A DNA stretch of 64,000 nt from Mnemiopsis leidyi. Taxonomy: Eukaryota > Ctenophora > Tentaculata > Lobata > Bolinopsidae. This document shows positions 2,571 through 63,575 of this stretch, piece by piece. Under the pieces are notes generated by a model. That model saw nothing but the letters and a program-made list of their open reading frames with translations. It was not told the origin of the DNA and did not search any database. Location: positions 124,843-188,842 of the forward strand of contig JH152687.1 in assembly GCA_000226015.1 (NCBI GenBank). The letters run 5' to 3'. A program made the position numbers and the translations under genes. Positions within the stretch are counted from its first letter, which is position 1. Every line of letters begins with the position of its first letter.

Positions 2571-2633
2571 CTCACACACTTCCAGATCGTGGGGTTTCTC
2601 ATCTTCATTTTCCAACTTCCTGTGTCCTGCCAT
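2571..2633 (-). CDS. Probable first coding exon of an unrecognised gene (partial)
   Basis: On the minus strand an acceptor-like TATATTCAG is followed after 10 nt by an ATG, then 21 codons in one frame, then a strong GTAAGT donor. The peptide begins MAGHRKLENEDEKPHD and is hydrophilic with many Glu and Lys. I do not recognise the family. The start resembles those of the other genes in the window, all of which have an acceptor-like AG a few bases upstream of ATG. The rest of the gene would lie to the left, inside 1-2570 or beyond the window edge, and I could not place a second exon with confidence. A chance match remains possible because the exon is so short. Confidence 0.45.
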
Positions 2634-2643
2634 GATACAGTTC

Positions 2644-5600
2644 CTGAATATAAATAGCACGTTAAGTTTTAACCCTGGTGTAACTGTTGGTTTAAAGCTA
2701 ATTCGGTTTATTGTTCTACCTAAGTCAGTGCAACCTTACCACCTTTTCGGGGATACATTTTCCAGAACTAAGTCAGCCGGTTAATGGAAATTTTGAGGAA
2801 GTGAGGCAGATACCCCGTTTTGAGGAAGTGAGGCAGATACTTTAAATCCGAAAATTTTTCTTTCCCGAGATATTCGGGAAACATGTTCATTGTAGACGTT
2901 ATGGCCAATCTGATTGCATAATTATCAAAGATTTGCGGGTTAAAACTCTTGTCTTATAAGCCTCCAGACTTCAGACGCAAACTCATATGTATAGTTATAA
3001 CCGGAAAAATATCATCGATTTGATTTCTAGTAACTACATTAATTGCGCATAACGGATCAAGATTGAAAATACTTGTAGTTTATCACAGATTTCTTATACT
3101 TCCTTTAACGGAGGCAAACATTTTTTTGAATCAGTCATTTCAGTCTAAAATTTGAGTTGTCAAACGTAAATTGGTTTATTTAGAAACTTTGCTAACAAAG
3201 CTATCAGCAACAATTAACAACTTAAGTGAGATCATGCACCAGTAAATAAACTTGCTTTTTGGCAGATCGCATGCGGTTTATCTTAAGTTTTTGTGACAGA
3301 AAAAAAGGATATACCACAAAACCAGGAAAAGCGTGGCGTCGAAACATCGCTTCTACTAAAAAAGGTGAAATAAGATTTAAAAAATGACTCAACAAAACTC
3401 TCAATTTGTTTGGACAACAGTCAGCACAATGAAAAACTGCTAACTTGCACATTACCTAACACATAAAACAGGTAAGTAGGTAATGCATATCAGCACAAAC
3501 AAACAAACCATCTCCATTGACAGCAACAGCGGGCAGTATCGCTACATTTCCAACAATAGTATCATCAACTAGCAAGAAAGTGCTGTTCAGGGTGATCCAG
3601 ATAAATGTCCTAGCTTAAGATCGCCCTGTGGTATCAGAGAACGTGGCTGAGGTGCGAGAAGAGCAATCGTTCGAAATCGATAGATCGCGTTCCATCTAAT
3701 CGACAAATTGGTCGTTTTAACGCAGATTTTCCTGCTTTCTGGTAGATTTAGAGCGTTTAATCTGGTTGCAGGAGGAGACCTAGAACCCTTAGACTATCAA
3801 TCAACCTTGGAGTGACAGATTTTCAAATTAATGGTAAAAACAAGATCGCCAATAAACATGGAATCAAAATTTAAACGTACGAACGTACATCAAAGAATGG
3901 CCGACATATTCACGGATTTTGACCTAGCCCTCAAGTGGAAACACTCGTTTGATAATCAATTTTAAGTCAAACTTACGTAAATGATTTCATAAATTTCAAA
4001 GTTACGGGTGGTAAATACGGATATCCAATAAGATTATGTGGACACGGCAGGTGGCTTCTGGCAAGGAAGGCATAAATAAAACTTGGTCAAATTGGGCGGT
4101 TGTTTCCAAGAAAACGATGTCCTACGAGAGTAAGATTTACAGCGCAATGTCGATCTGAATCATACGACCTTGTAACTACACAAAACCAGCATGGCTAGCA
4201 TACAACCACAAAACAGTGGTGGCATATTGACATAACACTTAGCACTGCCATGTCAAATAGAACGTGTACATCTATCTGTAAGTGTACAGGAGGAAGCCCC
4301 GTCGATACCTCCCCCCCCCTGTACAAACAACGCTCTACTGCTCTAGTCCTCCTAGCTAAGCTACCAGCTGTACACGTGGTAAGATAGTTGAGTGACGTCA
4401 CGCGGATGAGATAATAGCACGATCCCTCTCTTTCTCTCATCACGTACATCAGGATGGTGAAGGAGAGTGTACGTGTACACACACCGCAAGTCAACACGTT
4501 GTCATGGAGACCGTGCACCTGTCATGGAGACGGTGATTGACAGGCGTGTTTGTGTCAACAGGAAGAGCAGGAATGCGAAGACAGACTCAGAGGCTTGGAT
4601 AGAGGTGGGACAAGATAGATAATATTAGGTTGTCTGGTGGAGGGCAAGGGTGTACCGAGACCCAACTTATCTTTATCGGGACAATACTCTAGCTCTAGCT
4701 CTCTAAACCTAAAGTTTAGGGTGTGGATTTGAAATTTTTAAGCAAGAAAACCTTTTATGATCTTTGATCTAATGATGTTGATGCTTTTGGGAAGACCGTG
4801 ATAGGGTTACGCAGATAAAATCAGTAACTGAGCTTGATTTAATTACAATTTGCTCGGCAGACCATGATTGTACAATAATTGGATCATGTGATCAAAACTA
4901 CACGATACGAACTAAGGTAGGTGGTGGGAATTCTAAACATTGGGCAGAATTGTGAGACAGGCGGTCGCTGGCCACTACAATAAATGTTTTGATAGGCTGA
5001 TTGAGACGCTTCCCATAATTGAAAAAAGTCAGCAGTACATTTAACGTTAATCTCCCTGGAGCCTGGGAGACCTTTGCCCGTGAGAAACTACAAAACACTA
5101 TGAAATACAAACATGAACAACCTAACGCAGTAATGTGCATGAGATTGAGTTCTACTTGAAACAATGACAGATTGGGAAAAGGTGTGACAGGTTTTCTGTT
5201 TTTATGGAACTTTCGGCTTATTGATAGCTGAGTTAGAATATAGTGAACTGAGAAGTGAGAAAACCGATACTCACACAGAAAGATCAGAGCAAGAAAGGAG
5301 GCTGAATTAGACGTGTTATGAGACTTCACAAAGGAAAGATTAATCATTGTGAGCCCCAGTGGAAAGGGAACGAGACGCGGATAAGTGGCAAGTTTATAAT
5401 ACAGCCAAGATCACGAGCTCGGAGCTTCTTTCAAGCTTGGAAAACATTTGCAGTCATCAACACAATAAACACAATGCAAAGGGTAAGGATAACAAACAAA
5501 TGGGAGGAATGATAGAAACCAACTTTAAGATCAAAGGCGGCAAACTGGTTACACAGAACTCCGACTTAATACTTGAATAGTTAGTGATTGAAGGAAAAGC

Positions 5601-6956
5601 GTGATACCATTGGCAAGCAATCGTGAGGCAATTTACTGATTGTTTTCTTGCGAAAGTTGAAGATCAACCTCAAACCCTTATGTCTGTCGATATTTCGATA
5701 TATTAGTGATAAATATTGCTTTCCGGGCCAAACTTTTAGAGATTCCATGATCTTATTTCTTATTCTCTACTATTTCTCCGTCTCGTTTGCAAAATAATTG
5801 CGACGGTAACAACTAACATAAAAGCATACGTAAGTCATAAGCGGTAAAAAACAGGAGCAAGCCAGTATATAAAGAAAAGAATTTGTCCTTGAAACAGCGA
5901 CAATTCATGACAAATACAAAGATATGATGATAGCGTATGGACTACGAGTAAACCACGGGATCAACAAAATCATCAATTAGAAGCAAAAAATTAGCTTAAA
6001 TATGATATTATTCTTCTGCTCTCAGCTCTTCTATAAAACTACTGGACACCCGCTCGTCCAGGCAGGTACGTTTCGGAATTTGTTGTTGACCTTATTCCTG
6101 GCTCGTGAGTCCTAGTAACATACTATTGAAAAACCACAACAAACTCTATGTTAATTTGACAGCGGCATTGCACAACTCACGCGTTACCCGTTACCCAAAA
6201 AATGTTTGAAAATAGCGCGTTACTGCTAACGCTCCTAGCTGATGGCGCGTGACTTTGACGAACTTAGAGAACGAAAATGACAAGGACTGGTTGACACGTG
6301 CCGTCAGCTGTGTGCATAGTAACGCGCAATTCGTGCTAATTATGCGACACACGTGAGTCGTTAAGAAGTGCGTGCATTCACTGCACGGATATCGATATTC
6401 CTTTTTTTCGAGTTTTCAATTCAATCTTGAATGATGATTAGTAAACCGTCTTATGCACTTTTTCTATTGTTTATTGCGATTGAGTTTACTCGAATATAAT
6501 ATGGATCTGAAAGATCTTGGCAGTAGTCTATGGAAGTAGGCATCAACATCAACTACACAATTTAACCATTCAAAATTATATTCACTGATGGGCAGACATC
6601 TGATTCAGACTCACACCTAAATCAAACACCAGTACTTCGCGCTAGGCCTTGAGGGAGAAAAATGGAAAGAGAAAAAAGATCTTAAATCATTGAATGAGTA
6701 GTAAAGTTGTTGATGTCGTTGCACTCTCATTTATAACTAGACGACTTCAACTTATCAATAAAATGAATTTCATCAACCAGGACAATGATGCCACAACGAA
6801 TCAATCAGGGGAAAAATTCAAACTATCGTGACTTGAATATCACAGCTGTAGGTATATGGCTTCTCGTGTTGCGTGGCAACACGCGATCAGGAGAAAGAAT
6901 TTAAGTTTGTCAATAGCTTACGCTTACAGCTTGGTTAACGTTTGAGCATAAAGCTA
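2644..6956. other. Gene-poor stretch
   Basis: No gene is supported. There is a 24-base direct duplication near 2790-2845 (ttttgaggaagtgaggcaga repeated) and a cytosine run near 4310-4320. A 149-codon minus-strand open frame at 4898-5347 has no family resemblance and no splice context, so I treat it as chance. A plus-strand open stretch at 5359-5580 reads like protein in part but is likewise unsupported. Confidence 0.4.
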
Positions 6957-7402
6957 TGGGGTCGTTCACATATGACGTCAGCAAATTTTTAGTAATTTTT
7001 ACCCCCTTCCCCCCTCTGTCATCAATCTTCATCATGACAAACCCCCCTAAATGGCAGAGGTAAATTACCATAATGACATCATAGTCGGAACCCACCCCTT
7101 CTTCATGTCAAAAAACTTTGATTTTTGGTCTTTTAATTTGCAGTCTTTTTTGAAATTTTCTTTTTTTTTGAAAGTCAGTGAAAACAGAGTATTTCATCAG
7201 AATTTTTACTTGAAAATTTTCCTTTTGATTTTGCAAAATTCTGATAAAAATGTTCAAAAGAAATCAAAAATTCTCAAGAAAACCTTATCAATCCTAAAAT
7301 TTTTTGATGACATCATCATTGGCCAAACCCCTCGTCATCAATCGTCATCATTTGGAAACCCCCTCCCCCCTAGGTGATGACGTCAAATGTAAACGACTCC
7401 TA
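6957..7402. mobile_element. Non-autonomous DNA transposon (MITE-like) with inverted ends
   Basis: The left end reads GGGGTCGTTCACATATGACG. The reverse complement of the right end reads AGGAGTCGTTTACATTTGAC. They give imperfect terminal inverted repeats of about 25 bases, each containing the palindrome TGACGTCA. The interior is about 400 bp. C-rich stretches near both ends (around 7000-7020 and 7355-7370) and repeated cat/gat-atgac-like motifs make the whole element roughly palindromic. It encodes no transposase; the single open frame across it is low-complexity Phe/Lys sequence. I cannot assign a superfamily or a certain target-site duplication. Confidence 0.75.
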
Positions 7403-10400
7403 AATAGTAAAAAGGATCAAAACTTACCCTAAACATTTCTTGAAAGACTATTTGTCAAAATTATACCAGTCCGTTTGTCTCAATATTTTAGTTTCAATTC
7501 CCGGGTTGAAATCTGAATAAAAGGTAATACCAACAGTAATTATTTTAGCCAGGAGGTATCGCCTGAGCTTTACGTACCTACAACCTACAAATTCTGCGAA
7601 CAAAATTTTTCAAATTTACAATAAATTGTTGTTGTGAGTTCAATAAGGTATCATGATATTCACATAAAGTCTAGAAGTAGTCTTTTTGGAATTGGAAAAA
7701 GTTCCTTATTCGACAAATCAGGACGTTTATAATCTGATCAAGAAAAAATTTGACAAAATACAGATTTGATTCATCTTTATCTTATTAATTCTAAAATTTC
7801 AGGCAAAATTTTGTTTCATAACAGATATGTTACAATACAATTACATAATAAGAATCACTTTGAAATTCTGGCTGGTTTATGCACCGGACTGTTTTAAGGT
7901 TTTGGGCAATTTTTTATAGATTTACCAGAAAACCCTAGTCTGTAAGGTAAATCAATGCTACCATCTATAAGTATCGTGGAAAATTTACCGACAATTTGAA
8001 CTTCCTGGATATACCATAAAAATTAACTTACCTTTAAAATAGTTAGATTCTCATCAAAATAGTAAAGCAATAAAAATACAATATCAGACTTAGACACACC
8101 CAAGCCAAAGTCTCTACAGTCAGATCAATATCAATATCATACGGCGGCGTCCTGAAAACGCAAAATATAACGCACGCCGGACTATGACCCGTGAGATCAT
8201 AGGATTAAAATCGCTTATTTTTCGCACAATGACGCGATATTTCTTCCAGCTAAAATGACATTTTCCAGAAAACTAAGGACGAAAAATTGCACCGTGACGG
8301 AAAAGCCCATCTCCAAATTTGATCATTTCGCCAAAAAGTAAGGAGAACAAGCCAGAAACCCAACATTTAAGACGAGGGACGTGTTCCTGTCTATTAAACG
8401 TTCAACATTGCAGTTCGGTACCGCGGAACCGGCCGACGGGGTTGCGGGCAGTCAAAATGAAATTTACAATCCTGCCACCTGCGTACCTTAACGATCAAAT
8501 AATTAACGGAAAATACTTAAAAAGCGTTGAAACGATTATGCCAGTCCATATAAAAATAAAATGATAACGACGTTAGCAGCTGCACTAAGCACAACAATCC
8601 AGCCGCTTTATGCCGGGTGTTATTCCTGGAATTAGTTCGCAAAATTACGTCACTCTCCACTCATTAGATCACTACGGCCGTGTTGTGTGCAGATGCGTCG
8701 CAACAATTAATCGTCTTTATAGTGAACACGCGATATGATTATGACAAATGATAACGATCTTCAAACAAAGGAACTGCCACAACACGCTCTGCAGGAGACT
8801 GCAGCAGCAAGTACAGTCCGGACTAGCGGAATGACAGGCCAGTAACCAACAACACTGCTATAAGATTCTATCGCACGACGGCCACACCAACACAGCCTCG
8901 CACACAGCTTCAAACCAGTTGACAGCTAGTCATCGTCACCGAACAATTCTGCCAAATTTTATCCTGCGGTATGCAATTCTTAACTTTAACCACAACAACC
9001 GCTAATTCATTGACAACCAACAACCAAGTAAGGTTTGAATGTGTCCAATTCATCCCAGGACGACTGGTATTAACTATTGAAGTGGATAATTGTGTTTTAC
9101 CTGTGTAGACAGAGCATGGAATTAGAACTGAAAATAGTTCCATTAAATCAGGCCTTGGCAGTTAACTGCAGGACTCAGCGTTTGCACACGTTAACACAAT
9201 TACGCTGTTATAGCACAACGCTACGAAGCCTCAATAGACTTGCAGGGAGACAAGTGTTCCCAACAACAAACCGGCAAGCGTTGTCGCGAGAAAGCTTGAC
9301 GTAAACTGTTTCAAGAAGGTTCCAGAACAGATTGAGAAGTTTCCTCTCCAGGGAGCTGGATGAGACGATGATCGCGCGGTAGCAGCATCCTACCGTGATG
9401 CTCCGGAGGGCTCTGGCCCTCCGTCGTGAGTCTGTAAATATCTAGGAGGCCGTGGTAGGTCACGAACGTGGTGATTTTCCTGTACCGGTAATTAATGCTG
9501 GTCAGTGTAACAAGTCTGATAACGGGACGGATTCATGGCGACCAGTCTATCGATATGTTGACGTAATGGGTAAAGTAGATTCTTTGTAAAGAGTTAACAC
9601 TCACCCTACGTTGCTTGGATACTACAGTTCAGATTATGAGTAGATCGTGTTGGTAGTTCTAACATCTAATAATTTCTACTAGGTTGACACAACTCGTCCA
9701 AGCTAGTGTGGCTGCTGGTGTAGTGCCCATTAACCACATTTCTACTTACAACTTCTCGGCTACTACATTAGATGTGTTGCCGAGATTCTACAGGGAACTA
9801 AGAAAGAAACGTCTGATTCATCAGGAATATTACAAGTGAGTTTTTAAAAAAAAACGTTGATGCTCACGGTCATTGCGGGCATTATATCAATTTGAAAATA
9901 TATTTTCAAAGTCACCGCAAGAAGTCCTAGAGATCAACGAGTCTATTTTTCTTTACTTGTGAAAGAGAGCGAACAATCCTGAATCCCACAAAACAACTAC
10001 TTTATGAATTAAGATATTGTCGTCACTCGCAGAAAACACTAAACAAGACTCTCCTCCGCCTTTTGCCAAAAAACGGCGCCTAAACCCCATACCGTCCAAC
10101 AAAACTCCTCGATTGATTGGGGACTAAATGTATGGTTAGCCAATTATCTCCCCAGCTCCAGTCGGTTGGACTTTCTAAATTTTAGAATTTAACAGAGGTA
10201 GGAATTTAGATCTACTGGCAGTATCCGAGAAGACCGAAACCGTTCTATAACCATATCTAAAATCCAAGGATGAAATCTCGATTAGATCTGCAGTAGCATA
10301 ACTTTCGTAAAACTGAATGGTCTATATCCCTTACATTTACTGGAAATTTCGTTAGGGCTACGAGTAAGGCCATTGGAATTTATAATTTGTTATTTACTGA

Positions 10401-12983: not shown

Positions 12984-13141
12984 ATTTGGTATAGATCACC
13001 AACCGGCTATAAGTCGGCTACTAACAAGCTATAAGCCGGCTACTAACCGGCTAAAAGTCGGTTTATAGCCGGCTACAATTTTTATAGCCGGATGAAAGCC
13101 GGTTAGTAGCCGGCTTATAGTCGGTCGGTGATCTACCAATT
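12984..13141. repeat. Foldback (palindromic) repeat
   Basis: The left flank (attTGGTATAGATCACC) and the right flank (GGTGATCTACCAAtt) are inverted copies. Between them the motif CCGGCTATAAGCCGGCTACT recurs in both orientations, so the roughly 160 bases can fold into one long imperfect hairpin. It has no coding capacity. It looks like a miniature foldback element or a palindromic satellite fragment lying just beyond the 3' end of the Ig-domain gene. Confidence 0.7.
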
Positions 13142-41774: not shown

Positions 41775-41785
41775 AATTCAGAGAG

Positions 41786-42689
41786 CTAAAAGAGATAACG
41801 CTTGAACTATAAGTGAGCATGGGGAGCTAGTGTTAAGAGAAGGGTATTTTGGGAGGGATCACTAATCTATAAGATCACGTGATAGTATTGCTTAATATTG
41901 ATTGGTGATACCAATCAATATTATTATATCAATATCTTATCATTTTACTATTAACCCGATTGAAAAGTTTTCGTGAATCAATTTTTAAAAGTATGTAACA
42001 AGTAACCATTTCATACTTGTCTAATTTGTATAACATTGAACTGTAAGTGTATGTTACAAATTATTTAAAATCTTGTAAAAATCTTGTAAAAATCTTGTAC
42101 CTGACTATTGATTGATCAATCACTGTCACATGATACGAAACATTTTTGACCCCTCCCCAAAAATACCTTTCAGTTTCTCAATTCATCATGAAGTTAAGCT
42201 ACTGGTGTTGTCGACAACACGCTTTTCCGCATCTTCAAGGATGATCGCGTCTTTAAAAACCAGGCTTCATTAATTTTACCTGTCCTACGTTTATGAACTT
42301 GTGTAATTGTTAACTAATTTCAGCCTTGAAATTTTACTGTCCTGGACGAGAAAAATAACCCAAATCCAATTGAATTGTAAAGATTTCATGTCATACATTA
42401 ACTGGACTTCGAAATACAACAATAAACATTTGAATTAATTTCGTTTTTATATTTTCATAGTTTTATATCCAGTAGTAGACTCAGCAAGAATATTGAAATG
42501 GTTACGAGGATCCTCAGAAGCAATTCCGGATTGAAGTTATTAAGTCAATTGTCTGAAATTTACTGGTCTCTCATCCATTGAACTATTTCTCGAGTATCAA
42601 GTAAGTATCTAGTGAAAATGGGGCGTATTCGAAACTTTGAACCGAATAGTTAAAGAATAATGTTGTAACAGATTGGAATTCTACCGATA
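41786..42689. other. Intergenic, nothing recognised
   Basis: AT-rich spacer between the CHTF18 start and the first decayed CHTF18 fragment. Only short local repeats are seen, for example aatcttgtaaa repeated near 42070-42100. The CHTF18 promoter, or the trans-splicing outron, should lie at its left side. Confidence 0.5.
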
Positions 42690-44683: not shown

Positions 44684-44860
44684 TCTATAGAACAAGAAAA
44701 AGTTTTAGTCAAAAGGAAATGTAAGTAGGTGATTATTACTTTAACAGTTTAACTCTCTATCCTGTACCACCTGAACAAAAATTCAAGCCCAGAGTGTTTC
44801 CTAGATGGTGCAGCGTCAGGAGGATAATATATTTATAGAATAAAACTCACGTTTAAAATT

Positions 44861-45030: not shown

Positions 45031-45147
45031 ACTGTACTCGACCGTGAATAAATCTTGTAAAAGGAAGGGTTTCTAAATTCAAGAGTTCAGTGCGCCTGTG
45101 AAGATTAAACAAAGATTTAAAGAAAGTTAACGTAATTTTCTACTTAC

Positions 45148-45229: not shown

Positions 45230-46034
45230 CCGTTTTTCGGAGATCGGAAAGCTAACAGAGATAAAGTTTTGACGAGCGGATCACTTGAATACTTGATCAT
45301 TTCACTAAATCTACAGTAAAAATGTTAAAGTTAGATGATATCATATGCTTGAGGATATGAAAAGTAAATAAATTTGTCATTTTAAAGTGAAATAGCTTAT
45401 TAGGTGACCGTGAAAGAAATCCCTAAAGTTGATGAAATTAAAGCTAATCGGAAGCAATCAATATTATCAAACTTCATGATATCAAATTCATAATAATACG
45501 ATGTTAAAGGGAAGTAAGCATATAATTCAGTAATTCACACAGCTGATATTGAGTTAACTCGGAAGATATAAACTGTTATCACTCTCCGTCCAGATGAAAA
45601 ATAAAAATTAACTAAACTTTTTGCTTATTAAGGCAAGAAAAAGCGACAAATAGATTCAGCGGTCCAAAGTAGATAGCACAAAACGGTAGTACACTTGAAA
45701 TCTACAAACTCAGTCGATACAACACAAAGTACTGAATTAAGAACAGCTTGAATTTCATATATGTTTAACTCAAAACCCCACACAGCAGTCCAATATGATA
45801 CAGACCACAAAAATTTTCTCTCAAAGTTCCACTTCAAACTTAAACAATTTACCTCGCTCACGAAGCCAGAAGTCAAAATTTGCAACTGCTTGTCAATAGA
45901 ATTCACCTACACAAATAGTACACCAACCGTCCAATCAGTACTGAAATCAAAAACCAAAATTCCACTAAGATAATTTCCACAAATTCTACCAAGCACCAGC
46001 CAACTACCCTCCCTCATGAACCTCCCACCTAATT

Positions 46035-48583
46035 CTAATGTCTTCTACGTCTGCCCGGAGAACGGGATCTGTGTCGTCTTCTCCCCCCACCCTTGATATG
46101 CCGTCCCTTTCCGAAGTGCTCCAGTCCGAGACGACTACGGACCTCCTTGGAACAAGCTTTAACGTGGAGAAAGTTGCAGTATCCTCCTCTGGTACACTCT
46201 GATGTTTCGTGCTGTCGGCAACAAGCCTCTCTGTGAAGGATAGCGTGTTTAATGTCGTGTTTAATGAGGCGATGACAAGATGAAATATCTTTAATTTGTT
46301 GGCCAATAGTCTTTCACCACTTCTCTGCTATATAGCTCAAATTGTCGTCACGAGATTTTAAAAATTTGTCGGGTATCTGTTGATACAGCAACTCATTTGA
46401 GGAATATGTGTATTGGAGATAAATCCAACTTGATAGGTCGTTAAGAAAAATAGTTGACACAAATTGCATTCGATTCATTGTAAGTTGATAACCTACTGTC
46501 GCGGCCATCACGCGCTCTCACGCATTTCTGGCCTGGCGAAAGAAATTCTAGACGCGAGTCGCCCGTTAATCGATCCACTGTGACAGACGCTATATAGCCG
46601 ATGAGCACAGATGCTAAATAGCAGATGTGAACAGATGCTAAATAGCCCATGTAAACAGACGCTATATGGCCGATGATGTAGCTACATGTAGAATTATAGC
46701 CGATGATGTAGCTACATGTAGCTGATGATGAGTTTACCTGAAGTCTGTGACGGGTGAGAGTTCTGCGTAGATAGGAGCTCCATTAAACCATCTGTTGTTG
46801 AGATCGTCAACACATTTGGAGGCGTCGTCTTCCGACTTGAACATCACGTATATGTTCCCTGGAGGGGTCGGTCAGAGTAACTACACCGCTCGGCAAGATT
46901 TGGAAATGTCCGGGGCAAGACTTGGGAATGTCCGGCGAAAGACTTGGGAATGTCAGCGGAAAGACTTGGGAATGTCCGGGGAAAGACTTGGAAATTACCG
47001 GGGAAAGACTTGGAAATGTCCGGGGAAAGACTTGGGAATACCCGGGACAAGACTAAGGAATGTCCGGGGCAAGACTTGGGAATGTCTGGACGTCAGAGAA
47101 AACTTGGGAATTTCCGGGGAAAGACTTTGGAATGTCCAGGGTAGACTTTTGAATGTCAGGTGCAAGCGAGGGGAAAGGTTGGGGCATCGTCTTGGAAAAG
47201 GTTGGAAATAATCTGGGAGTGGGCGTCATTCGTGCTCGTTCTATCCCTATCCACTATAACTGATTAGGGGATGATGACGGCGACATGAACTTTGACCCAC
47301 TGACCCAGTCAATACAAGTCATCTCTAGGAGTTTCAGTTAAAAAACTCCTTTACCGATTAGATGATCTCCCAGATTTTCACAGACGTTAAGTTCCTCGAT
47401 AGCTCCGTACTTGTCTTCTAATTCCACGTAAACATCTTCAAAGAACTCGTCAAAATGCTGCTGTAAGAACTCCTGAAAAATAGAAATATATATCACAGCG
47501 CAGTTCATTGAACTAAATCCTTCCTATCCTTCCATTTATATTTACATGATCAATAAAAGCTTGACTCAAACAGCAATTGCACGAAATAACTGAGGTTTAT
47601 TCCGCAGTAATACTAAAAAAAACTGGCAGTCTCCGAGAAGACAGCCACAATGTGGAACAGTTTCAGGTAATGTGGAGCAGGGGGAGTATAAAATGTGGAA
47701 CAGTTTCAGGTAATGTGGAGCAGGGGGAGTATAAAATGTGGAACAGTTTCAGGTAATGTGGAGCAGGGGGAGTATAAAATGTGGAACAGTTTCAGGTAAT
47801 GTGGAGCAGGGGGAGTATAAAATGTGGAACAGTTTCAGGTAATGTGGAGCAGGGGGAGTATAAAATGTGGAACAGTTTCAGGTAATGTGGAGCAGGGGGA
47901 GTATAAAATGTGGAACAGTTTCAGGTAATGTGGAGCAGGGGGAGTATAAAATGTGGAACAGTTTCAGGTAATGTGGAGCAGGGGGAGTATACAATGTGGA
48001 ACAGTTTCAGGTAATGTGGAGCAGGGGGAGTATACCTCGGTATATCCACTGTTGTTCTTGAGTTCGGGATTCAGGGAGAAGTTAGCAGGACAGTGGTACA
48101 TGTGGTTAAGCAGGACTGTCTGACTGTAGGTCGGTCTGTTGTGCTGCCGCGAACATCTGCAAAGTAAGCGTAAGATAGTGGCAAAGTGGGTGTAAAGGCT
48201 TGAGAAAGTACCAGAATGACAGTACCTATATCTTGTAATTATAACTATTATCGTGGGTTGAGCCCGATTTCCGCTAGGAATCGGGCTAAACCGGCGTTGA
48301 ACTGTTTTTGAGATCGTGAATATTAAAAGATATAATTGAGAACAGAAACTCCCCATAAATATCGTTCTCCATTGGAACTTGGATAATGCCTATAAGTCGT
48401 GAGCTAGGAGTTATCTGAAATCGTTGAATTGATCAAACAAGTAGTTGAAAGTCTGGAACCTATGATGAATATGATTGACAAGCTATACCTCTCCCCGTGA
48501 GTGCAAGCTCCAGTTTTGAAGTAAAACGGACAGTTCACTCGGTCTTTTTCTGTCCCGAAAATGGAGGCCAGAAATTCTGCCAT
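46035..48583 (-). CDS. U2AF1: U2AF small subunit (U2AF35)
   Basis: U2AF35 reads the AG at 3' splice sites as the partner of U2AF65 during spliceosome assembly in the nucleus. My model has 5 exons and 216 codons: 48489-48583, 48036-48156, 47355-47472, 46738-46858, 46035-46230. The start [18 protein letters not shown] is the family hallmark. Then come zinc finger 1 ([20 protein letters not shown]), the atypical RRM ([38 protein letters not shown]) and zinc finger 2 ([20 protein letters not shown]). The RS tail is very short ([18 protein letters not shown]). Three introns contain tandem arrays: 47650-48035 begins exactly at the exon 2 donor, 46566-46736 close to the exon 4 donor, and 46893-47162 upstream of exon 4. 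Confidence 0.96.
46566..46736. repeat. Degenerate tandem repeat next to the U2AF1 exon 4 donor
   Basis: Repeated modules such as gccgatgatgtagctacatg (twice in full) and acagatgctaaatagc or acagacgctatat (four) fill the start of U2AF1 intron 4, beginning within about 10 bases of the donor. Confidence 0.8.
46893..47162. repeat. Tandem repeat, about 12 copies of a 21-22 bp unit
   Basis: Degenerate copies of gaaagacttgggaatgtccg lie in U2AF1 intron 3, about 35 bases upstream of the exon 4 acceptor in transcript order. A 138-codon plus-strand open frame over the array is only a reading of the repeat. Confidence 0.9.
47650..48035. repeat. Minisatellite, about 9 copies of a 43-bp unit, starting at a 5' splice site
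   Basis: Nearly identical units (gtaatgtggagcagggggag, then tataaaatgtggaacagttt) run up to the exon 2 donor of U2AF1. The donor GTATACTCCCCC is itself the first bases of a unit. The two units closest to the exon differ slightly from the rest (tatac instead of tataa). Confidence 0.95.
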
Positions 48584-48900
48584 GTCTGTGACTGAAAGAT
48601 ATTACAGATTACTGTTTAACAGATTATGAAAGAATGTTTCAGTCTGCAATTAATTCTTTATGTATTGGGTTACGTCAGAGCTTCAACGATACAGATAGGA
48701 CACAAACAAAATGTGCTATAATTAATACAAAATACTTTATTTCAAAAAAACCTCGAATTAATAGTTTTTAGCGTCAATCTAAGTCAATTCTGAATTCAAA
48801 ACATACAAAAATTCTAAATTTACATCAATTTATCGTGCAAATTTCGTCCTCAAGATATTAACATAATTTCATATAACATATTTTTAAAAACAAAACTCAG

Positions 48901-49043
48901 ATTTATGGCACATTGCACATCTCAATAATCCATTAAAGCCTGATTGCCAAAGTGAATAAGCGTAAAAATGGAATTTATGGCACATTGCACATCTCAATAA
49001 TCCATTAAAGCCTGATTGCCAAAGTGAATAAGCGGAAAAAATG
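48901..49043. repeat. Direct duplication, 2 copies of 72 bp
   Basis: Two almost identical copies beginning atttatggcacattgcacat lie in tandem just beyond the PEX3 stop codon, probably in its 3' untranslated region or the spacer to U2AF1. Confidence 0.93.
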
Positions 49044-49068
49044 GAATTAAATCCACAGAAACAACAAA

Positions 49069-50387: not shown

Positions 50388-50819
50388 TGCTAAGGTTTAT
50401 CATTAACTTGCACGTTAACTGGTTTAGTGGTTTTCAGGCTATGTGTTGAAAAAGATTGTAAATGAGCAAAACAAATCGTAAGAGATATTGGTATCCGTAA
50501 GTGAAAAACATCATTAAAAAATGTCAAAAATATTAACATCACACTCAATTCATTTACAATAATAGAGCCAAAAATCTGAAAAAAAATCACATAACATTTA
50601 AACAACAGTACTGTCTCAACCTTCATCTGAATGCATCGATCCACCATTAATCATTTAATTTTCACAACGGCACAACAGGTTCCAGTGTTTCACAACAAAC
50701 AACAGCAGAACAATCTGTAAGCTCCCTCCCCTTATCTGTTATACATTGTATAAACAACCCCATTCAATCACAACTACAATCACTACAAAGCTCTGACATC
50801 AATAGAAATATCGCGAACA

Positions 50820-51639
50820 TCATCCCGGTCCATGTTTCTCCAGATATATCCGAAACTGCTCGATATCATTGTCGAAAAGCCGGTCAATGAGACGTTTCTC
50901 CTCCTCGATGCTACTCATAAACTCATCCCAGTCAGGATCGTGACCTGGGCTTGGTGGTCTGGAGTAGGCAGTGTCTGTCTCCATGGGAACGTCAATACTG
51001 TCCGGCAGGATCAGGTCACATAACTGGGAGTTGGAATTCTTGAAGAGAATCATAGTAGAGCTATAAATAGCATTGAATGGTCGTAGAATTAAGAAATTTT
51101 AAGGCGAGAAAAGGATAGTTACGTTACTGAAATCATCATACACTTATATCAAGCATATTACACGTAAGATTTGTGCTGTAATGTGGAGGCGCATAATTTT
51201 AAAAAAACACCTTAAACGGATCAGACCTCGGTCAGCTCCAGAACCTTCTTATCAAGCTTGGCAATGTTAGTATCGGCCGTTTCTGCAGCAGCTGGTAGAG
51301 TTTCTCCGCAGTGTTTCTCCAGAATCTGCTGGCATTCCTCCAACTTCAACTTCTCGGTTCCTTTCCTTTTGTTTTGAAATTCTTCGATAAAGTATCGCGC
51401 TTCACCTGGGTAATGACGAACTATACAATAAACAGTTCGATCAGTTTATTGTCGCGGTTATAACCTATATTCTTTTAAAACTGAAGTTCGCACAGCAGTT
51501 GGTACTCATCTAAAAGTAATGATTTATTTATCTTAAGGTACGATCGTATACCTTGTATAACAGCTCGATGATCAAATAGTCGACTGAAAGAAGCCAAACC
51601 AGCTTTAAGAGCACCTAAACCCCCATCATCTTTTGACAT
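50820..51639 (-). CDS. BLOC1S5: BLOC-1 subunit 5 (Muted)
   Basis: A component of the BLOC-1 complex, which sorts cargo to lysosome-related organelles from endosomes. My model has 3 exons and 156 codons: 51552-51639, 51227-51405, 50820-51023. The signature LFDHRAVIQGEARYFIEEFQ in exons 1-2 closely matches the conserved DHRPVIQGETRYFVKEF of animal Muted. The rest is helical and charged (ECQQILEKHCGETLPAAAET, WDEFMSSIEEEKRLID), as expected of a coiled-coil BLOC-1 protein. It is slightly shorter than the vertebrate protein. The exon 2 donor is GTCTGA, weaker than usual. Acceptor-like TTTTGCAG lies 1 nt before the ATG. The stop is 433 bp from the PEX3 start, and the gene begins 327 bp from the HDAC8 stop. 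Confidence 0.82.
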
Positions 51640-51965
51640 GCTGCAAAATGAATAAAAAGTAGATGCAACAACAGATTGCCAATCTCAAATCTCGGACAAA
51701 AAATGTTTTTTGAAATTCAAATTGAATCCCTAAGATCGAAATAGGGAAGCTAACTATAAAAATCATTCAGTTATATCATTAGAGTGCTTATTACTCTAGT
51801 TTTTAAGTTTAACAATAAAACTTTAATGTTATTAATAGAAAATCTGAGTATATACATACAAATAAGTGATGATAAATATTGGAAATATTTAATAAATGTT
51901 TAATACAAAGAAAATTAAAAACTTATCACGACTTAATAAATTATAGTGGCAAACATTTATTTTAC

Positions 51966-54425
51966 TCAACATTTAATTAAATCTAAATTATTATTTACAG
52001 AGTTAATTACAGAGTCCAGATATGAACTGTCATTTTCATTTTTTATGTTACTGGCAGTTATCTTCATTTCGAATCCCGGGCCATAGTCTGTAAAATATTT
52101 ATGATCTGGTATCTCTTCATTTGATAAGTCTGTATGTAGCAAATCAGCTGAAAATATTGTAATTAGACCTACTAGTTACATTCATGTTGGACCCGGAAGA
52201 TCTGGTGAAACTTCTAACCAAGACTAGCTGAAAACCGCCTAAATAAGCTCCTTCAAGGTAGTAGGTGCACTTTCAAAATTGTTGATAGACATTCTAAATC
52301 ATACACAAAATTTGAAAGACTCTTGGACTAGTCGTAGTATTAGGGTACAAGAAAAACCGGTTATCGTAGTCCAAGTTCTAGCAACGTTGGGGTGGTTGTA
52401 TCCTCCTCCACCGAGCAGGAGAGTCGGCCGGTTATAAGACACCACTTTTGACACCACTCTAGACAGACCACTTGCAGTGTAACTAAACGCCTGTTGAGAT
52501 GCTTAGTCGAACCTAACTCTCTAATTAATTGTAATATTCAACTGAGGCAGAGATTTACAAAACAGACAAATCATAGAAAAAGAGCTGAAAATTTCACCCT
52601 TAGTTATTTTAAACCTCAAGCGTTATCATTATTGTTTTAAAACCGGTAAAGTTAACTTAGACGTTTACCTGTTTTAAAACCGGTAAAGTTAACTTAGACG
52701 TATACCTGTTTTAAAACCGGTAAAGTTAACTTAGACGAGTACCTGTTTGAGAACCGGTAGAGTTAACTTAGACGAGTACCTGTTTTAGAACCGGTAAAGT
52801 TAACTTAGAGTGTACCTGGTGAGGATCCCCCGACACCCCGTCCGCTCCACACTGACACACAACAGCCTCCGGTTTGAAACGTTCCACTACAGTGTCTAAC
52901 GTTTCATCTGTCACCTGTCGGCATTTCTTACAATATCAACTTTTATTTTGCCTGAATATCTGATGACTGGCGTCTTGCAGTTGTATTGATGGTTTACCCT
53001 TGTTGGCTAGATGAACAAAACACACACGTACCCTAGTAAGTGTCGTATCATCTGCACCGTTCCTAAGCGGTATGTTAACTGAGTAGCCCCTCCCTTTACC
53101 CTCCCCGATACTGTCCACTCCACCACCTCCACGGATAGAACCCAGTCTCGTACTTGTGTACAGAGTAGGTCAACACAGCGGAACTCTGGTAGAACGCAGT
53201 TTCCACTCCGTTACCGTGATGTAGATCTAGATCTATGTACAGGACTCTGCGGGGGGTTAGAGTTAGACCAAAGTTAGAGTTAGACCAAAGTTAGAGAGTT
53301 AATGGTAGAGCTAAAGATAGAGTTAGAGTCATGTAAATTACACGCCCAAAAACACTACTTTCAAAATGTACACGCTGCCCAAACTAAACCTCCATACCTT
53401 GAAAAGTAGTTCCGTAGTTGACGTATCGCTAGAACGCAGTCGTTTACATAACAGAATCCCTCAGCTTTTTCGGGCTGCCCATGGTGCCATCCACCAAACC
53501 AGTTTATAACGACCTAGAGAAGAAATGGTTGAACATTATCGTATGGGCTTTAGTGAAAACATTGGCTTAGTTTAAATATTGATCAAAATATGTGTGATTG
53601 ATACTACGAAATCTATATCCTTATTGAAGATTTGTATCGGTTCACCGCTTCCCGCTTCGTCTATTGTAGTACGAATTCTACAAAGATCACAAATAAAACC
53701 TGCGTGAAGCGGGTGCGTACAAGAAACAAACAAACTGTTCGCGCGTCACGACTTCCATGAAACGAAGACCCTTTCAGCTATCCGTACTTACACGGTTACA
53801 CAAGAACAAATCTTACACGCATATTACCTGGTAATAACCCTGTCCTAGTTCTTCTGCTGCGGTTATTGAAGCTCCACCAATAGCACAAACCGTTCTAAAC
53901 ATCTTGGGGAATGGTGGACAATCAAACTCTGAATAAGGAAGTTCTTTGGGAAAACAAAATTTCTTATTCGTGTGAAAATAAGAGCAGCCTAAAATCACTA
54001 AAGCTTAATTCTATTAACAGCTACTATTATGACACTTAAGTTCATTTAACTTACCTAGTCCGAATTGTCGCAACTTCTCGTCGTCCTCTGTGTCTTCAGA
54101 GTAATTCTCCAAGGTACTGATGTAGTCTTTAGAATGGAACTCTGTCAACTGAAGACTGAAAATGACCAACAATTATCGTCAACAGAGCAAGGAATATCAT
54201 ATAATGATGGTAAGAGTCTTGGTTTGAATATAATCAAATTCTGAATGTTAAAAAGTACTGGAGCTATATTTACCCACTGATGTTGTTCGGTTCAATAATC
54301 TCCAAATTGTCTGTCAGTTGAAACGATTCAATCAAGTCTGCTACCATATCAGAACGATTGGTTATCTTTGGTATAAGAGATGTTAAGCTTATCAACTCAT
54401 CTGAAGCCACATAGCCTATAACCAT
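51966..54425 (-). CDS. HDAC8: Class I histone deacetylase, HDAC8-like (one frame break)
   Basis: A zinc hydrolase that removes acetyl groups from lysines (histones, SMC3). My model has 8 exons: 54274-54425, 54055-54155, 53828-53928, 53398-53513, 53032-53246, 52816-52914, 52358-52490, 51966-52147; about 365 residues if one base is ignored, near the HDAC8 length. Active-site parts are present: the tandem His of NWFGGWHHG, the zinc ligands in DLDLHHGNG (Asp and His) and [10 protein letters not shown] (Asp), and the catalytic Tyr in [17 protein letters not shown]. The short N-terminus and the C-terminal [16 protein letters not shown] favour HDAC8 over HDAC1-3. In exon 5, after TGFYP, the conserved Gly run continues only in the +1 frame (near 53125). 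This is one surplus base, so either an assembly indel or a disabled allele. Intron 6 opens with a tandem array. An AATAAA lies about 10 bases after the stop. Confidence 0.92.
52634..52815. repeat. Tandem array, about 5 copies of a 37-bp unit at the HDAC8 exon 6 donor
   Basis: On the transcript strand each unit starts GTACTCGTCTAAGTTAACTT and ends ACCGGTTTTAAAACAG. Every unit is therefore bounded by GT and AG, and units meet at CAG|GTA junctions. The first unit starts exactly at the exon 6 splice donor. Confidence 0.95.
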
Positions 54426-54866
54426 TTCTAGGGAGAAGTTATCAAGAAATAATGAAATACATTATCAAATAATGAATACATTATCAAATCATGATAAATC
54501 ATTACATATCAGATGTAAACTGTGAAATTTTTTGTGAGATTTAAACTTTAGACAAATTGAAGTTTTCTTATGTAGAAAAGAACAGTCAAACCACTTAAAT
54601 TTAGTGTATCTAGAAGCTTATTTTGTATTGCTAAATAAATAAAACTGGTTCAGAAACTTAACATCTGCGAGATAAAATTTCATATTTGTCAGCAAATTAG
54701 CTTATTACAAAAAATGAGACATGCCTGCGCCTCAAGGTATTTTAATACAGTTTATGCCAATTTGAGTGACTGGAATGGACAAAATGCATTTGTGAGATAT
54801 GGCATATGCAAGTCCGTCAATTCAAATTTAAACAAATATAAAAATTTCAATAATATAAAAATCACT

Positions 54867-57800
54867 TCAATCACTAAAAACATCAGGCAGACTTCCATCA
54901 GAATCTGGGTCCTGACTTATAATTGCTGGCTTGGTAAAACTAACAGAGCTCATACTATCTGCAGTTGAAATCTCTGTAGGCAAAATTGTCAAGACAGTCT
55001 GATGTGAGTCACTTTCGCTGATTTCAACGTTAACTGATACTACTTTTTCATTTTCAATTGCTGGACTGTTCTCCACGATTTTCACTGATTTCACAGGGCT
55101 CATCCCGAGTTTCACTTTCGAATCTTCTGGAACTTTGGCAACTGCCTGCTGAATACCCTTTAAAATATTCGAGAACAAGGAGGGTTTAGAGGTGGGAGGA
55201 GGTGAAGCAATAAGGTCTTCCTGAGAATGTTGTTCCTCAAGGATATCACGCTCTGTTATCTCATCATCTGTATCCATCTGTTTAATTGTAGTGTCTGATC
55301 TGTCGGCTGAGAGATTCAAATCACTCTCTCTAGCCTGCTCTGATTTTGTTTCTGTCGCTTCTTTTCGCTTTTTCTGTTGCATTAAATCATACTGAAGTTC
55401 GAAAATGTTCTTTCGTTTTTGGGATTTACCACCATCAGAATCTGACACTTTTTGGGGAATTTCTGATTTTTTAATTTCCAACACGGGCACTGCTGCTGTC
55501 AAAGATTCACAGTTCTCACAAACAAAACTGCCAGATTCATATGTACCACTTGTACAATGCAGATGAAAATGTTTTTTACAGAAGTCACAGAACAATTTTT
55601 GGCTGCAATCTTCGTTTGAGCACATGCTGCATCTCGTCTCATGAGACTTACGGAAAGAGTCAATAGCTACAACATTCTCCACAGTCTGCTTCTTGGGAGA
55701 ATCTGGTGACTTTTCAGGTTGGGCCTTTTCTTTTGGACCCTGTTCACATTTAAAATGATCTGGTTTCTTTACAGACCTTCCATATTTGGTAGACTTGACT
55801 TCTGAATTTTTTTCATCTTTGTCTTCTTTAGCTACAGTGGAATTGGATTTTCTGTTTTCTTTGTCATTAAGGATGGAAGCATTCGGTTTAGAACTAGTAC
55901 ATTCAGTACAAAACCAAGCCCATCTCTTACTGACTTTAGGATTTCTGGTAACTGGGGGATCAAGACAGCCAAAGTGGAACCAGTTGTGACAATCATCACA
56001 ATCTACCATCGTTTCAGGAGCTTGAGCATGCTTGCATGTGTGACAAAACTTTAGACCCAACTTTTTCTTGATAACATGCGCTTTAATACGAATGTTCTGC
56101 TTTTGCATCAAGCAATCAGGAATGTCATACTCTGTAGGTTCAACTAATGACAAAAATTTCCAGATTGCAACTGCTTGTTTCCTAATCTTCTCATATCTTT
56201 TGGATAGCTTGGGGACTTGCAGTTGCAGGTCATGTATCTCTGCTTGCAACTTTTGTTCTTCTTCCCTTAGATTCATGAGATTTTTGTAGTGATATGTAGA
56301 CCTTGCAGCTGTTTCTCTAAGTTGTTTCTGTCTAGCTTCATACTGTTTAGAAAAATCTACTGAGATATCTGGTTTTATCAGTTTAATTGGCCTGTCAGCA
56401 TAATCAGCATCCTCAACAATGGTAACATGAGTGTTCAAGCCAAACAACTCAGCTTTCTTGGTGAGTTTGGAAAACGCTGAAATTGATCCAAACAGTGCAC
56501 GAGGATGTTTCTCTGTCATAATTGCTGGAACAACCGTTTTTCTTCTGCTTACTAAATATTCTTTCCTTTTCTGTTCTAACAGAAGGCTTGCATTCTCATC
56601 CATTTTCTCATTTAATGAGGCCTTAAGATGTTCCATGAGCAAGTTGTAAGCTTTCTTCTTAGGTCTTGCTAGATCTTTATCCACATGAATTTTGCAATGA
56701 GTGAAGAAAGGGTTAGCTTTAATGTCTTCATTTTCATTACTATTTTCCATTAAAAAGCCAAGCTTTTGTGCACATGTAATGTGGAAGTTTGATTTACACA
56801 ATCCAGCATCACACTCAACAACAAGTCCAGAATAAGCAAACCGATCATCCTCACAGAGATCGCATTTCTTGTAACCAAATTTCGAAGGTGGAATATCTGT
56901 TGTAATGATGGGCTCTAACTTGCTGGTGTCACCAAATCCTATCCCCTCAGAATAGAGAGCACATACCATATGAGCCCACTTGCCAGAGTCAGTACATTTC
57001 ATTACCCCTTCCTTATTAGGACACAGTTCACAATGCTGAGAGCTATCAACGTTAGCAATGCAAGGCTCACAAAACCAACTCATATCCAGTTCATCATTGT
57101 CAGGATCACTAGGGGGTGCTCCATAGCAACCTTCGTGGACAGTAATACCACAGTTATCACACTCTAAAATATTGTCTTCTTCAGGTCCTGTCATACATAC
57201 ACAGCAGATACTTATTTCGAGAGCTTCAGAATGAGAAAGGGTAGAAACTTTTGATTTAGGCTCTTTCGGCAGCTTGGGTTTCGATTTTTTCATGCTTAAC
57301 TCTTTTTCGTCAATCATGGGGACATTGCTTAGATCAACTTGTTCCTCACCTTCTTCCTGAGCTATTTGTTCAGCGACATCTTCTTGTTTTGCTTGCCATT
57401 CTTCATCTTCTGAACTTGATTCACTAGACATGTCTTTAGCTTTCTCTGAAAGCTCATTTTTGAATTGTATTACTTTTATTTGCCTTTTTCCTGCTCCTCG
57501 AGGTATAAACAAGAAGGGCATGTCCTCCTTTGTAATATTGATTGGTTCGGCATTTTCTTCAGTTTCTTCTTCAAAACTTTTCATCTCCACATTAGTATCA
57601 TATAGTTCTTTATTGTTTGATGTGTCACTTTGGCTGTCATCCTCATCATCATCAGTGTCCTGATTGTCACTGTTATCATCGTCACTCTCATTACTACTAC
57701 TTACTCTCTTTATCACTATCGTTGCTATCTGCTGCCTCACGCTCACCCTCTTCTCCTTCCCCGTCCCAATCTTTGTCCTCATTATCTTCTGAACTAGCGT

Positions 57801-58254
57801 CGCTATCAACAAATTTAACAACTTTACTCTTGTCTTCGACAGGTCTTATAGTCCGTTTAGGCCGTCTCTTAAGAGCAGGCAAGTCAAGGTCATCCTCTAC
57901 ATTTTTAATTTTGTCTACACTCATATTTTCATCTTGCATTGCATTATCCTCAACACTACCCATTTCATTTTCATCAGCAGATTTACCTAATTCACTATTT
58001 TCTTTATGTCTATTAGTTTGATGATTTGTTTCTTTTTGTCTATCTCCCTCCCCAACTGCCTCAGAATCTTCAATGACATGGTGAATTGTACATTCGGTCA
58101 CATTTTCTGGATTATCTCGGGTAGATTTTCCATCCTCAAAGCCAAACCCCTCATCTGATGATGATGAAGACGATTTGGCATATCCTACTATGTTGCTGAT
58201 GGTGGTGGGCTGATTTATTGCCGGCAATTCATTGCTTTCATGATTTTCATTCAT
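54867..58254 (-). CDS. PHF14: PHD finger protein 14, coding region without introns (one frame break)
   Basis: A chromatin reader; PHF14 binds histone H3 tails through its PHD modules and is nuclear. The coding region is one block, unlike the intron-rich neighbours. It is about 1128 residues if one base near 57700 is skipped: upstream codons end DSNDSDKESK then a stop, and the next frame continues SSSNESDDDNSDN in the same acidic style. Domains in order: an acidic Ser-rich N-terminus; PHD1 (ICCVCMTGPEEDNILECDNC); the extended PHD with CELCPNKEGVMK and CDLCEDDRFAYSG; a coiled-coil-like stretch (about 610-680); a second PHD (CHTCKHAQAPETMVDCDDCH); a third, shorter finger (CSMCSNEDCSQKLFCDFCKK); and an acidic C-terminal tail ending PDVFSD. 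GCYGAPPSDPDNDELDMSWF matches the spacing typical of PHF14. An acceptor-like TTTCAG sits 1 nt before the ATG, so the gene is probably spliced in its leader only. Confidence 0.9.
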
Positions 58255-58971
58255 ACTGAAATGTTAGATAAACAAGTGTAAGGTGTTCGATTGATGTAAT
58301 TTTTAATCAGAATCAATATGTTTTGTACCATTAAATAAACCTGGGAGACCTTAGAGCTAGAGGAATATTTGTGCCGATTTCCATTGGTGGCCTAAATGTT
58401 AAAGTTCTAGATGAATGTCTTGATTAGATCACAGACTCACGTTTAAAACCTCTTGAAAAGGCCCTCAAAAGCAAAAATGTAAAATTCATCTGATTTCGAT
58501 AAAAATTGGAACAAATGCAACTTTATCTAAGGTCAATTTTCCCTGAAACTTACAAGTAAATTATCAAACAAAGTTGAAGTTATAAAGATAAAAGTTTTGG
58601 TTGCCCACCTAGACCTGTAGTTTGTTAGGCACAATATGAATTAAGATCACCAATTTAAAACAGATTTGCTGAACATACTGTAGATGTATAGAAATGTTAA
58701 CATTTTGAAGACTGATGTGATGACAAGTTTGGTAGAGAAAGACACAAATAATCTCACAAGTTTTCAATAAATTAGGCTTTAAATCTTATAATTGAACTGT
58801 AAAAAATTACTTGCTTTCATTTAAAATGTGATGTACTCCCTACACCAAAGCAAAGGATAAAAATCAAAGAGAGCCCCCTAATCGTTTTTTCCTTTTTTAT
58901 ATTTGAACGATTTTAAAGGATCAGCTTTCCTCTTTGAAGCCTGCCCTTTATAATTCCCAATCCTTTTCTTG

Positions 58972-61796
58972 CTAAAATCTACTATTTTTTTTCTTCTTAC
59001 TCTTAGTTTGCTTTAGATTAGCTTTTAATGCCGAAGGCACTAAATAATCAGGAACTGCCGAGAGGTGTTCTTTGATCTCACGAGGTTTTAGAACCTTATC
59101 ATGCCTTAAAACTTCCAAATCTTTAGGATTTTCTGTGAAGAAAGTCTTGAGCTTCTCTGAGTTCATCATTTCAAGTTTTATTTCTTTTCTTCGAGTCTCT
59201 TGTATAGCAAACTTTGTTACAGCACTGTAAGCATCTTTACACCGATATCTGAATCCCTCGATTGAAGACATGTTGAAATTGTAAGGCTTAAACTCTTCTG
59301 TTTGATCAGAACTTTTCTTTAAGAATTTTTTGAGATCCTCAAACTTTTCTGCATTCTGAGGAGTCAGAAAGGTTAGACTAGTCCCAGTGTTGAAAGCTCT
59401 GGCTGTTCGTCCAACTCTGTGGACATACTGCTCTGGGGAAGCCGGGAAATCAAAGTTTATGACATTGTCCACACACTGGAAATCTATTCCACGTGCAACA
59501 TTCTGGTCTTTGTTCTGGACATCATCACTGGTCACTATTGTATCGTATATACCTGAAGAAGACTTACTTTTATTTGTCAAGTTAGCTACAAATTTAAGAG
59601 ACTGAACGATATTATGTATCGATGGGAAAATCCTTTGAGAAAAATAATTAAATTTACATGTTTGTTACATACCTCTGTTAAATTGATCGATTGCATGTGC
59701 CACACAGTTTGAGGGGAGCTCGAAGTTGAGAACACACGAAGATATGGAAAACTGCTCCAGAAAAAGTTTGACTTGATAACATCTGAAAGGGGTTGTTCAT
59801 CAATTTTTTGTGCTTAATTTAAGGGAATCAAACTTTTGGCCGAGTTAATCTCTGTAATTTGTAATTAGATTAATAATGGGAACAAAATAGGTATGCTGTG
59901 ATTTTTCGTAATTTAAGATAAATAGATATTTAAGGTGTAATCTGCAACAAAACGTGTTAATCTTACTACCCATAAATTGTTGTCATATAAATGTATATAT
60001 TCATATGGCGGTCTGTCTGGTTTGTATGACGTTACTTAGCTATAATCTATAGGTAAATTTGGGTAAATTTAGTGCAATTACACTGTTAAATTGTCACTGG
60101 GCTGGAGGTCCTAATTGGCAGCTGGATTAGATTTCTTTTACACATGATTATGAGTTATGAGATTTTTTGAAAAATGCTATACTGAGTATAGTCAAGACAT
60201 CTTGCAGTCATATGGCTTAATGTTACTATTGAGTATTGGTGTATCAATACTTTCAACACTACTATAAGCAAATAAGAGACTACAGTATATATAAAAATTC
60301 TAAAATTAATTTATTTTGTTCATCGTGTTCTGGGTATCATCACTCAACCTCTTTAAAGATTTTAAAACAATACCTCTTTGACTTTTTCAAACCTGTTAGT
60401 GTCAGTGACAAATATAATTGATTTTCCTCTGACAAGATTTAGCTTCAGTAGAGTGTAAAGCAGAAGAAACTTATCATCTGTATCACACTTGACAACATAC
60501 TGCTCCAAAGTTTTCTCCTGGGGATAATTGAGTATGATCGAATAATAGGTATCAAGCAAGCCTGTGACCAGTTATAGGATGGAGCAAAACGCTAACAATA
60601 TGAGCACTCCATCCAAATTTGAAAACATCCCAATTTCGTTTCCTGTGAAAAACTTAAAACAAGTTCAAAAGGATTTATCCTTTCACACCTCAGCAGCTGC
60701 AGAGGAAATGTCAAGTGTTACAGGATCATTGAGATGTAAACAAAGTGACTTGACATCTGCAGACATGGTAGCTGACATCAGAATAGTCTGTTTCACAGAA
60801 GGAAAGCTTTGTCTTAGCTCTGCTATGTCTCCAGAAAATCCATAGGAAAATTGAAGGTCTGCTTCATCAAGGATCAATAGTGACAAAGCAGCAAGTGAAA
60901 GAGATGCATTTTTCACTGCTGAAAGTATGCTAGCTGGAGTTCCGACCAAGATGTGAGGATCTTGCAACAAAACTGTTTTCATTGAATCAGAGTTTGAACA
61001 ATGTGACAGGTTCACCTGCAAGGGTAAAAAAAGTGATAATCATTCAATATCAATTATGTTACCAGAACTGTTAATAAATTAAGTACTTTCTGATATCACC
61101 ACCTCAGTGAATGGTCGAATTAACAAAAGGCTAAAAGGTTTGCAAGAAGACTCTTACCACTGAAATAAGTGAAGCCCATTTTGTTAATGATCTGATAACT
61201 TTAGTAGTTTGGGAAGCCAGTGTCTTCGTTGGAACAAGAATAACAACTGACAGAGGAACAGGAGGAGACTGTTTCAACAATAACTGCAGAGCACTTAATG
61301 CGTAAGCTCCTGTTTTTCCTGAATAGATTCTATGACATCATTTCAATTAACAAATATCAAAAATTAACAATCAAGTATAATAGGCAATATATCTTCTATG
61401 TCGAAGATTTTGGACAAAACATGACTTATTTGAATTACTTGCAAGTACATTCACTGCAGATTTAGATGATTCTAAACATGCACCACCCAACAAATAGGCT
61501 TTTCTGACAACATCATATGACATTTATTACAACACATCAATTAATTTAGGTATTTTTAGACTGACTCTACTGAAATCAAAGTTACCTGAGCCTGTCTTTG
61601 ATTTGCATATAATGTCTTTTCCTTCCAGGGATAGAGGAAGTGTAGCAGCCTGTACTAAAGTTGGCTTAGGCCATTTAACCTTGGCCACAGACTTGATTAA
61701 CCTATCATCCAAATGCAAATCTTTGAATGATTTTATTTTCTTGGCCACAGATAAAGTGTCATTTAGCTCTTGTCCATTTTCCTTACCTTTGAGCAT
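58972..61796 (-). CDS. DDX56: DEAD-box RNA helicase DDX56 (Dbp9 type)
   Basis: A nucleolar ATP-dependent helicase needed for large ribosomal subunit assembly. My model has 6 exons: 61586-61796, 61158-61318, 60689-61015, 60393-60517, 59673-59782, 58972-59552; 504 codons as written. Motifs: a Q-motif region ([20 protein letters not shown]), Walker A SKTGSGKT at 66-73, VPTKTLA, GTPASIL, DEAD ([15 protein letters not shown]), [36 protein letters not shown] and [24 protein letters not shown] and the later [12 protein letters not shown] identify DDX56 rather than other DEAD proteins. Just before the stop is an A8 run near 58990. In the next frame the sequence continues RKADPLKSFKYKKGKND to a stop at 58878-58880, which matches the conserved DDX56 C-terminus. 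The true protein is therefore probably about 535 residues, with a one-base indel here. Confidence 0.94.
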
Positions 61797-61819
61797 CCTA
61801 GAATAATCATGGAATCAGT

Positions 61820-63545: not shown

Positions 63546-63575
63546 CTATCTGTGTCTGATACCATCTGAATAAAC

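Follow-up and report, generated by a model that had tools for sequence, protein, structure and literature searches.

Candidate spliced-leader acceptors directly upstream of the start codons in a co-oriented row of animal genes

The window, by which the whole 64-kb stretch of DNA under analysis is meant, carries all of its clear host genes on the minus strand, and its gene content is that of an animal. The co-orientation of the row agrees with the initial annotation. All tests were confined to this window and to its DNA sequence. The gene models come from a small hidden-Markov gene finder which was run region by region. A first version of it was discarded because its intron penalty was too weak and led to overfitting, and a second version, which fused adjacent genes, was replaced by the region-by-region runs. 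Pfam and PDB matches support the identities of HDAC8, BLOC1S5 (Muted), U2AF1, a DEAD helicase (DDX56), an AAA/RFC-like CHTF18, a receptor guanylyl cyclase and an Ig-repeat protein, and they indicate a PHD-finger protein compatible with PHF14. The same sources give weak support for PEX3 and the F-box gene, and the left exon (ATG 2633) found no match in Pfam.

Upstream of each of the 11 starts, an in-frame stop lies at a distance of 2-35 codons with no other ATG in between, so that the start is the first ATG of its frame. The N-termini of U2AF1 and HDAC8 are anchored by their homologue alignments, which begin at residue 1 in the former and at residue 1 or 4 in the latter. The divergence of U2AF1 and PEX3 suggests a fast-evolving lineage, and a ctenophore would be plausible. 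In HDAC8 the reading frame appears to shift by one base past HKYETGFYP (window 53100-53120), and the gene resumes in the next frame; a sequencing error or decay of the gene would account for this.

An AG close to each start had previously been listed as a splice acceptor. These AGs are present at the positions given there, with the exception of that of the F-box gene, which lies at 44685-44686 and not at 44686-44687. The sites were scored with an acceptor matrix made from 73 internal introns (59 CAG, 7 TAG, 7 AAG; median intron 194 nt), which is biased towards good sites because the introns were taken from our own gene finder. The sites are as follows.

61798-61799, minus strand: AG before the DDX56 ATG (61796); leader 1 nt; weak, score 1.49, 12th percentile of internal acceptors
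58256-58257, minus strand: candidate trans-splice acceptor of PHF14 (ATG 58254); leader 1 nt, CAG, score 3.61
54428-54429, minus strand: candidate trans-splice acceptor of HDAC8 (ATG 54425); leader 2 nt, TAG, score 4.02
51641-51642, minus strand: candidate trans-splice acceptor of BLOC1S5 (ATG 51639); leader 1 nt, CAG, score 5.36
50390-50391, minus strand: AG before the PEX3 ATG (50387); leader 2 nt; weak, score 1.00, 7th percentile
48592-48593, minus strand: candidate trans-splice acceptor of U2AF1 (ATG 48583); leader 8 nt, CAG, score 5.39
45252-45253, minus strand: acceptor upstream of exon 1 of the decayed CHTF18 copy; TAG, score 4.76
44685-44686, minus strand: candidate trans-splice acceptor of the single-exon F-box gene (ATG 44683); leader 1 nt, TAG, score 3.37
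41786-41787, minus strand: candidate trans-splice acceptor of CHTF18 (ATG 41774); leader 11 nt, TAG, score 4.55
34727-34728, minus strand: AG before the receptor guanylyl cyclase ATG (34723); leader 3 nt; poor, score -3.10, under every internal acceptor
24415-24416, minus strand: candidate trans-splice acceptor of the Ig-repeat gene (ATG 24388); leader 26 nt, CAG, score 5.84
2644-2645, minus strand: acceptor of the left exon (ATG 2633); leader 10 nt, CAG, score 4.91

The scores of BLOC1S5, U2AF1, the Ig-repeat gene, CHTF18, the left exon and the dead CHTF18 exon are close to the median of the internal acceptors, and those of PHF14, HDAC8 and the F-box gene fall at the 25-33rd percentile. The AG of DDX56 may be explained by a Kozak-type A at -3.

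The mere distance from an AG to the ATG was set aside as evidence, as the same proximity is common at random ATGs (an AG within 12 nt of 60% and within 26 nt of 84% of them). A simple rule, which asks for a YAG no more than 12 nt from the ATG and for 9 or more pyrimidines out of 14, describes 8 of the 11 starts versus 7% of random ATGs (p about 1e-7), its 12-nt limit and thresholds being chosen post hoc and uncorrected. The PWM mixture test, in which this choice was corrected by maximising over limits, gave a logLR of 10.3 within 12 nt and 5.96 within 30 nt, and P = 0.00015 when maximised over leader lengths; none of 1000 local dinucleotide shuffles matched its signal. The enrichment also persists against nulls matched for a purine or an A at -3. 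The start-proximal AGs score far higher than random AGs (p = 3e-5) and somewhat lower than the internal acceptors (p = 0.054), and the best-fit share of starts with an acceptor is about 70-80% (25-96% in the 30-nt version). Acceptor-like sites are thus enriched at the starts as a set, but the claim of the initial annotation that every start has one was too broad, because three of the sites, those of the guanylyl cyclase, PEX3 and DDX56, score poorly.

The decayed copy of CHTF18 spans about 45252-42714, is interrupted by stops and frame breaks, and holds the F-box gene between its pieces. In the last 22 nt of the acceptor tract, 17 positions are identical between CHTF18 and the copy, an identity reached by none of 2628 pairs of internal acceptors; over the next 38 nt upstream (-60 to -23) the identity is 11/38. 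The homology thus ends at the acceptor tract, which would be expected if the acceptor were functional and its outron unconstrained; alternatively, the duplication may have ended there by chance. The pieces of the decayed copy are of unequal age, as identity to CHTF18 is 93% in one 180-nt block and 71% in another. The F-box gene lodged between them is intact and consists of a single exon.

Most genes of the row probably receive a spliced leader (SL) by trans-splicing at unpaired acceptors close to their starts. This is the best reading because acceptor-like sites cluster at the starts more than expected, good donors are absent from the gaps upstream of them, and the CHTF18 site is conserved between the paralogues. 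From it we infer the use of these sites, an SL RNA as the partner and the participation of about two thirds or more of the genes. In most genes an unpaired 3' splice site (outron acceptor) would lie directly upstream of the start codon, and an SL RNA encoded elsewhere would donate the leader, which would be joined at the candidate AG. The mature mRNA would then consist of the leader and 1-26 gene-encoded nucleotides followed by the AUG. The listed AGs of DDX56, PEX3 and the guanylyl cyclase may be unused. The spliced-leader signature noticed earlier is accordingly upheld for the row as a set, but not for each of its starts, and the further statement that most mRNAs of the genome are trans-spliced goes too far, being an extrapolation from 11 genes.

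Part of the row could in addition be a polycistronic unit resolved by trans-splicing, a possibility which would add to SL addition rather than exclude it and which we regard as unlikely. About ten consecutive genes lie on one strand, and the stop-to-AG gaps, which measure 325-752 nt apart from a single gap of 1752 nt, are only 325-477 nt in the PHF14-U2AF1 stretch. However, most of the gaps contain poly(A)-type hexamers, and known animal operons are usually tighter, though their spacing is measured from annotated gene ends. Counted in this way, the median spacing is 1 bp in Ciona and 31-57 bp in Oikopleura (PMC7986045), and chaetognath operons were defined by a spacing of <250 bp (PMC12460157).

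Another explanation, which appears improbable, is that every gene is transcribed from a promoter of its own and starts with a non-coding exon, so that the AG closes a normal cis-spliced intron in the 5'UTR. Introns of this type are frequent in animals and likewise place an acceptor 5' of the start codon, the acceptor-like sites of the row are real as a group, and fair donors exist in the gaps of CHTF18 (5.45) and PHF14 (4.86). However, the gaps lack matching donors as a whole, and some of them are just 325-477 nt long and shared with the 3'UTR of the previous gene. The donor signal of eight gaps was compared with that of gaps carrying one implanted real donor and with shuffles; the test spans the gaps up to the previous gene and leaves room for a donor inside or beyond that neighbour. 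The combined gaps gave a sum log LR of -10.47, a value as low being found in 0 of 5000 implanted-donor sets, and they differed little from shuffles (P = 0.03 towards fewer donors). Singly, a hidden real donor is rejected in five of the eight gaps, i.e., those of HDAC8, BLOC1S5, PEX3 (P = 0.005), U2AF1 and the Ig-repeat gene (P 0.003-0.022), and is not individually rejected in those of CHTF18, PHF14 and the guanylyl cyclase. Four of the rejecting gaps are given below; the second follows from the end of HDAC8 near 51966.

Upstream gap of HDAC8, 439 nt, minus strand: no good donor, P = 0.007 versus an implanted donor
51641-51965, minus strand: HDAC8-BLOC1S5 gap, candidate outron of 325 nt; top donor only 2.29, P = 0.005
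24415-24775, minus strand: guanylyl cyclase-Ig gap, candidate outron of 361 nt; no good donor, P = 0.003
48592-49068, minus strand: PEX3-U2AF1 gap, candidate outron of 477 nt; no good donor, P = 0.022

A donor in the gap paired with the acceptor is not the general rule of this row, which agrees instead with outrons, whose acceptors have no partner donor upstream. The initial view that independent 5'UTR introns are less likely agrees with this result. Also improbable is the absence of any splicing at the starts, with the AG-ATG pattern made by Kozak purines at -3, T-rich 5' leaders and selective listing, since the signal exceeds both the -3 nulls and the local shuffles and the acceptor tract of CHTF18 is kept in the dead copy, even though most starts have a purine at -3, random ATGs often have a nearby AG and three of the sites are poor.

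The start-proximal sites of the row also differ from the internal acceptors in the base before AG, for TAG is found at 7 of 12 of the former versus 7 of 73 of the latter (p = 0.0004). This could mean that some of the listed AGs are not true sites, that outron acceptors have a laxer sequence than intron acceptors, as reported for Schistosoma (PMC5832876), or that they are a separate class. TAG is present in both CHTF18 and its decayed copy, and the conservation of this pair argues against every TAG site being false. It is doubtful, though conceivable, that trans-splice acceptors are a class of their own preferring UAG, with introns preferring CAG, and that the machinery could separate outron from intron at -3. 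U2AF1, the reader of the 3' splice site, retains Ser34 (window 48489-48583) and has Thr at a position which we take to be Arg28 in the human protein (human numbering); this observation is possibly relevant to the split between CAG and TAG.

SL trans-splicing is already known from several animal phyla, the ctenophores among them. The ctenophore system (Hormiphora californensis, Mnemiopsis leidyi) resembles the present case in its animal genome with compact genes. In ctenophores the majority of mRNAs carry leaders (PMC8527503), for example at least 56% of the full-length reads in Hormiphora (PMC8527503), and the fraction estimated for this row is about 70%. The published leader end, AATTTGAG, is a point of difference, as the Hormiphora leader ending in it is absent from the 64-kb window; only about 1 locus per 150-300 kb is expected, a density derived from published counts and genome sizes, so that the absence carries little weight. 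An SL RNA gene was not found in the window either by the Rfam scan or by a scan for a donor with an Sm site, and donor plus Sm-like pairs showed no excess (9 versus about 11 in shuffles). The tRNA and Rfam scans of the window gave nothing useful, and the leader ends of C. elegans, Ciona, Schistosoma, Adineta and dinoflagellates were all absent from it.

Nematode cis and trans acceptors have a common consensus, and the over-representation of TAG at the starts of this row is a difference from nematode SL1. The gene set (HDAC8, BLOC1S5) presumably does not indicate nematodes. The likeness to SL1 lies in the unpaired acceptor just 5' of the start codon and in the outron without a donor, the latter being the classical rule for SL1 (restated in PMC5832876). 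The outron acceptors of Schistosoma mansoni are less conserved than its intron acceptors (PMC5832876), and in this row, too, the candidate outron acceptors are the weaker ones. The flatworm leader can provide the AUG, whereas in this row the AUG is gene-encoded. To our knowledge, parasitic flatworms are without peroxisomal genes such as PEX3.

If SL addition holds, the 5' ends of genes in this genome would be predictable from the DNA sequence by itself, and standard gene finders will run adjacent genes together; our own did so because it took the start acceptors for the ends of introns. An acceptor at the start combined with a donor-free gap would then serve as a cheap DNA-only screen for trans-splicing, applicable to any compact animal genome without RNA data.

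Some further features of the window deserve mention. Relatives of U2AF1 were absent from viral contigs, and prokaryote genomes gave one short and one weak match. The short stretch, on a Bryobacterales MAG contig (L001 25-78), is 89% identical to U2AF1 and is probably eukaryotic contamination. The Ig-repeat gene (13754-24388) is predicted to encode a secreted protein with numerous Ig-like domains. Most of them have A or V in place of the second cysteine of the usual motif (DxGxYxC) and would therefore be without a disulphide. Minisatellite arrays at 46771-47225, 47649-48034, 33816-34226 and 48901-49048, with units of 86 nt at 99.7% identity, of 55 nt at about 87-90% and others, lie in introns of U2AF1 and the guanylyl cyclase and in the PEX3-U2AF1 gap. 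Long hairpin-forming inverted repeats occur at 12990-13137 and 31548-31803; the former has a sub-threshold Rfam match to MIR9563 (E 2e-4) and is probably a MITE-like element. The plus strand carries a reverse-transcriptase fragment of a non-LTR element at 63570-63887.
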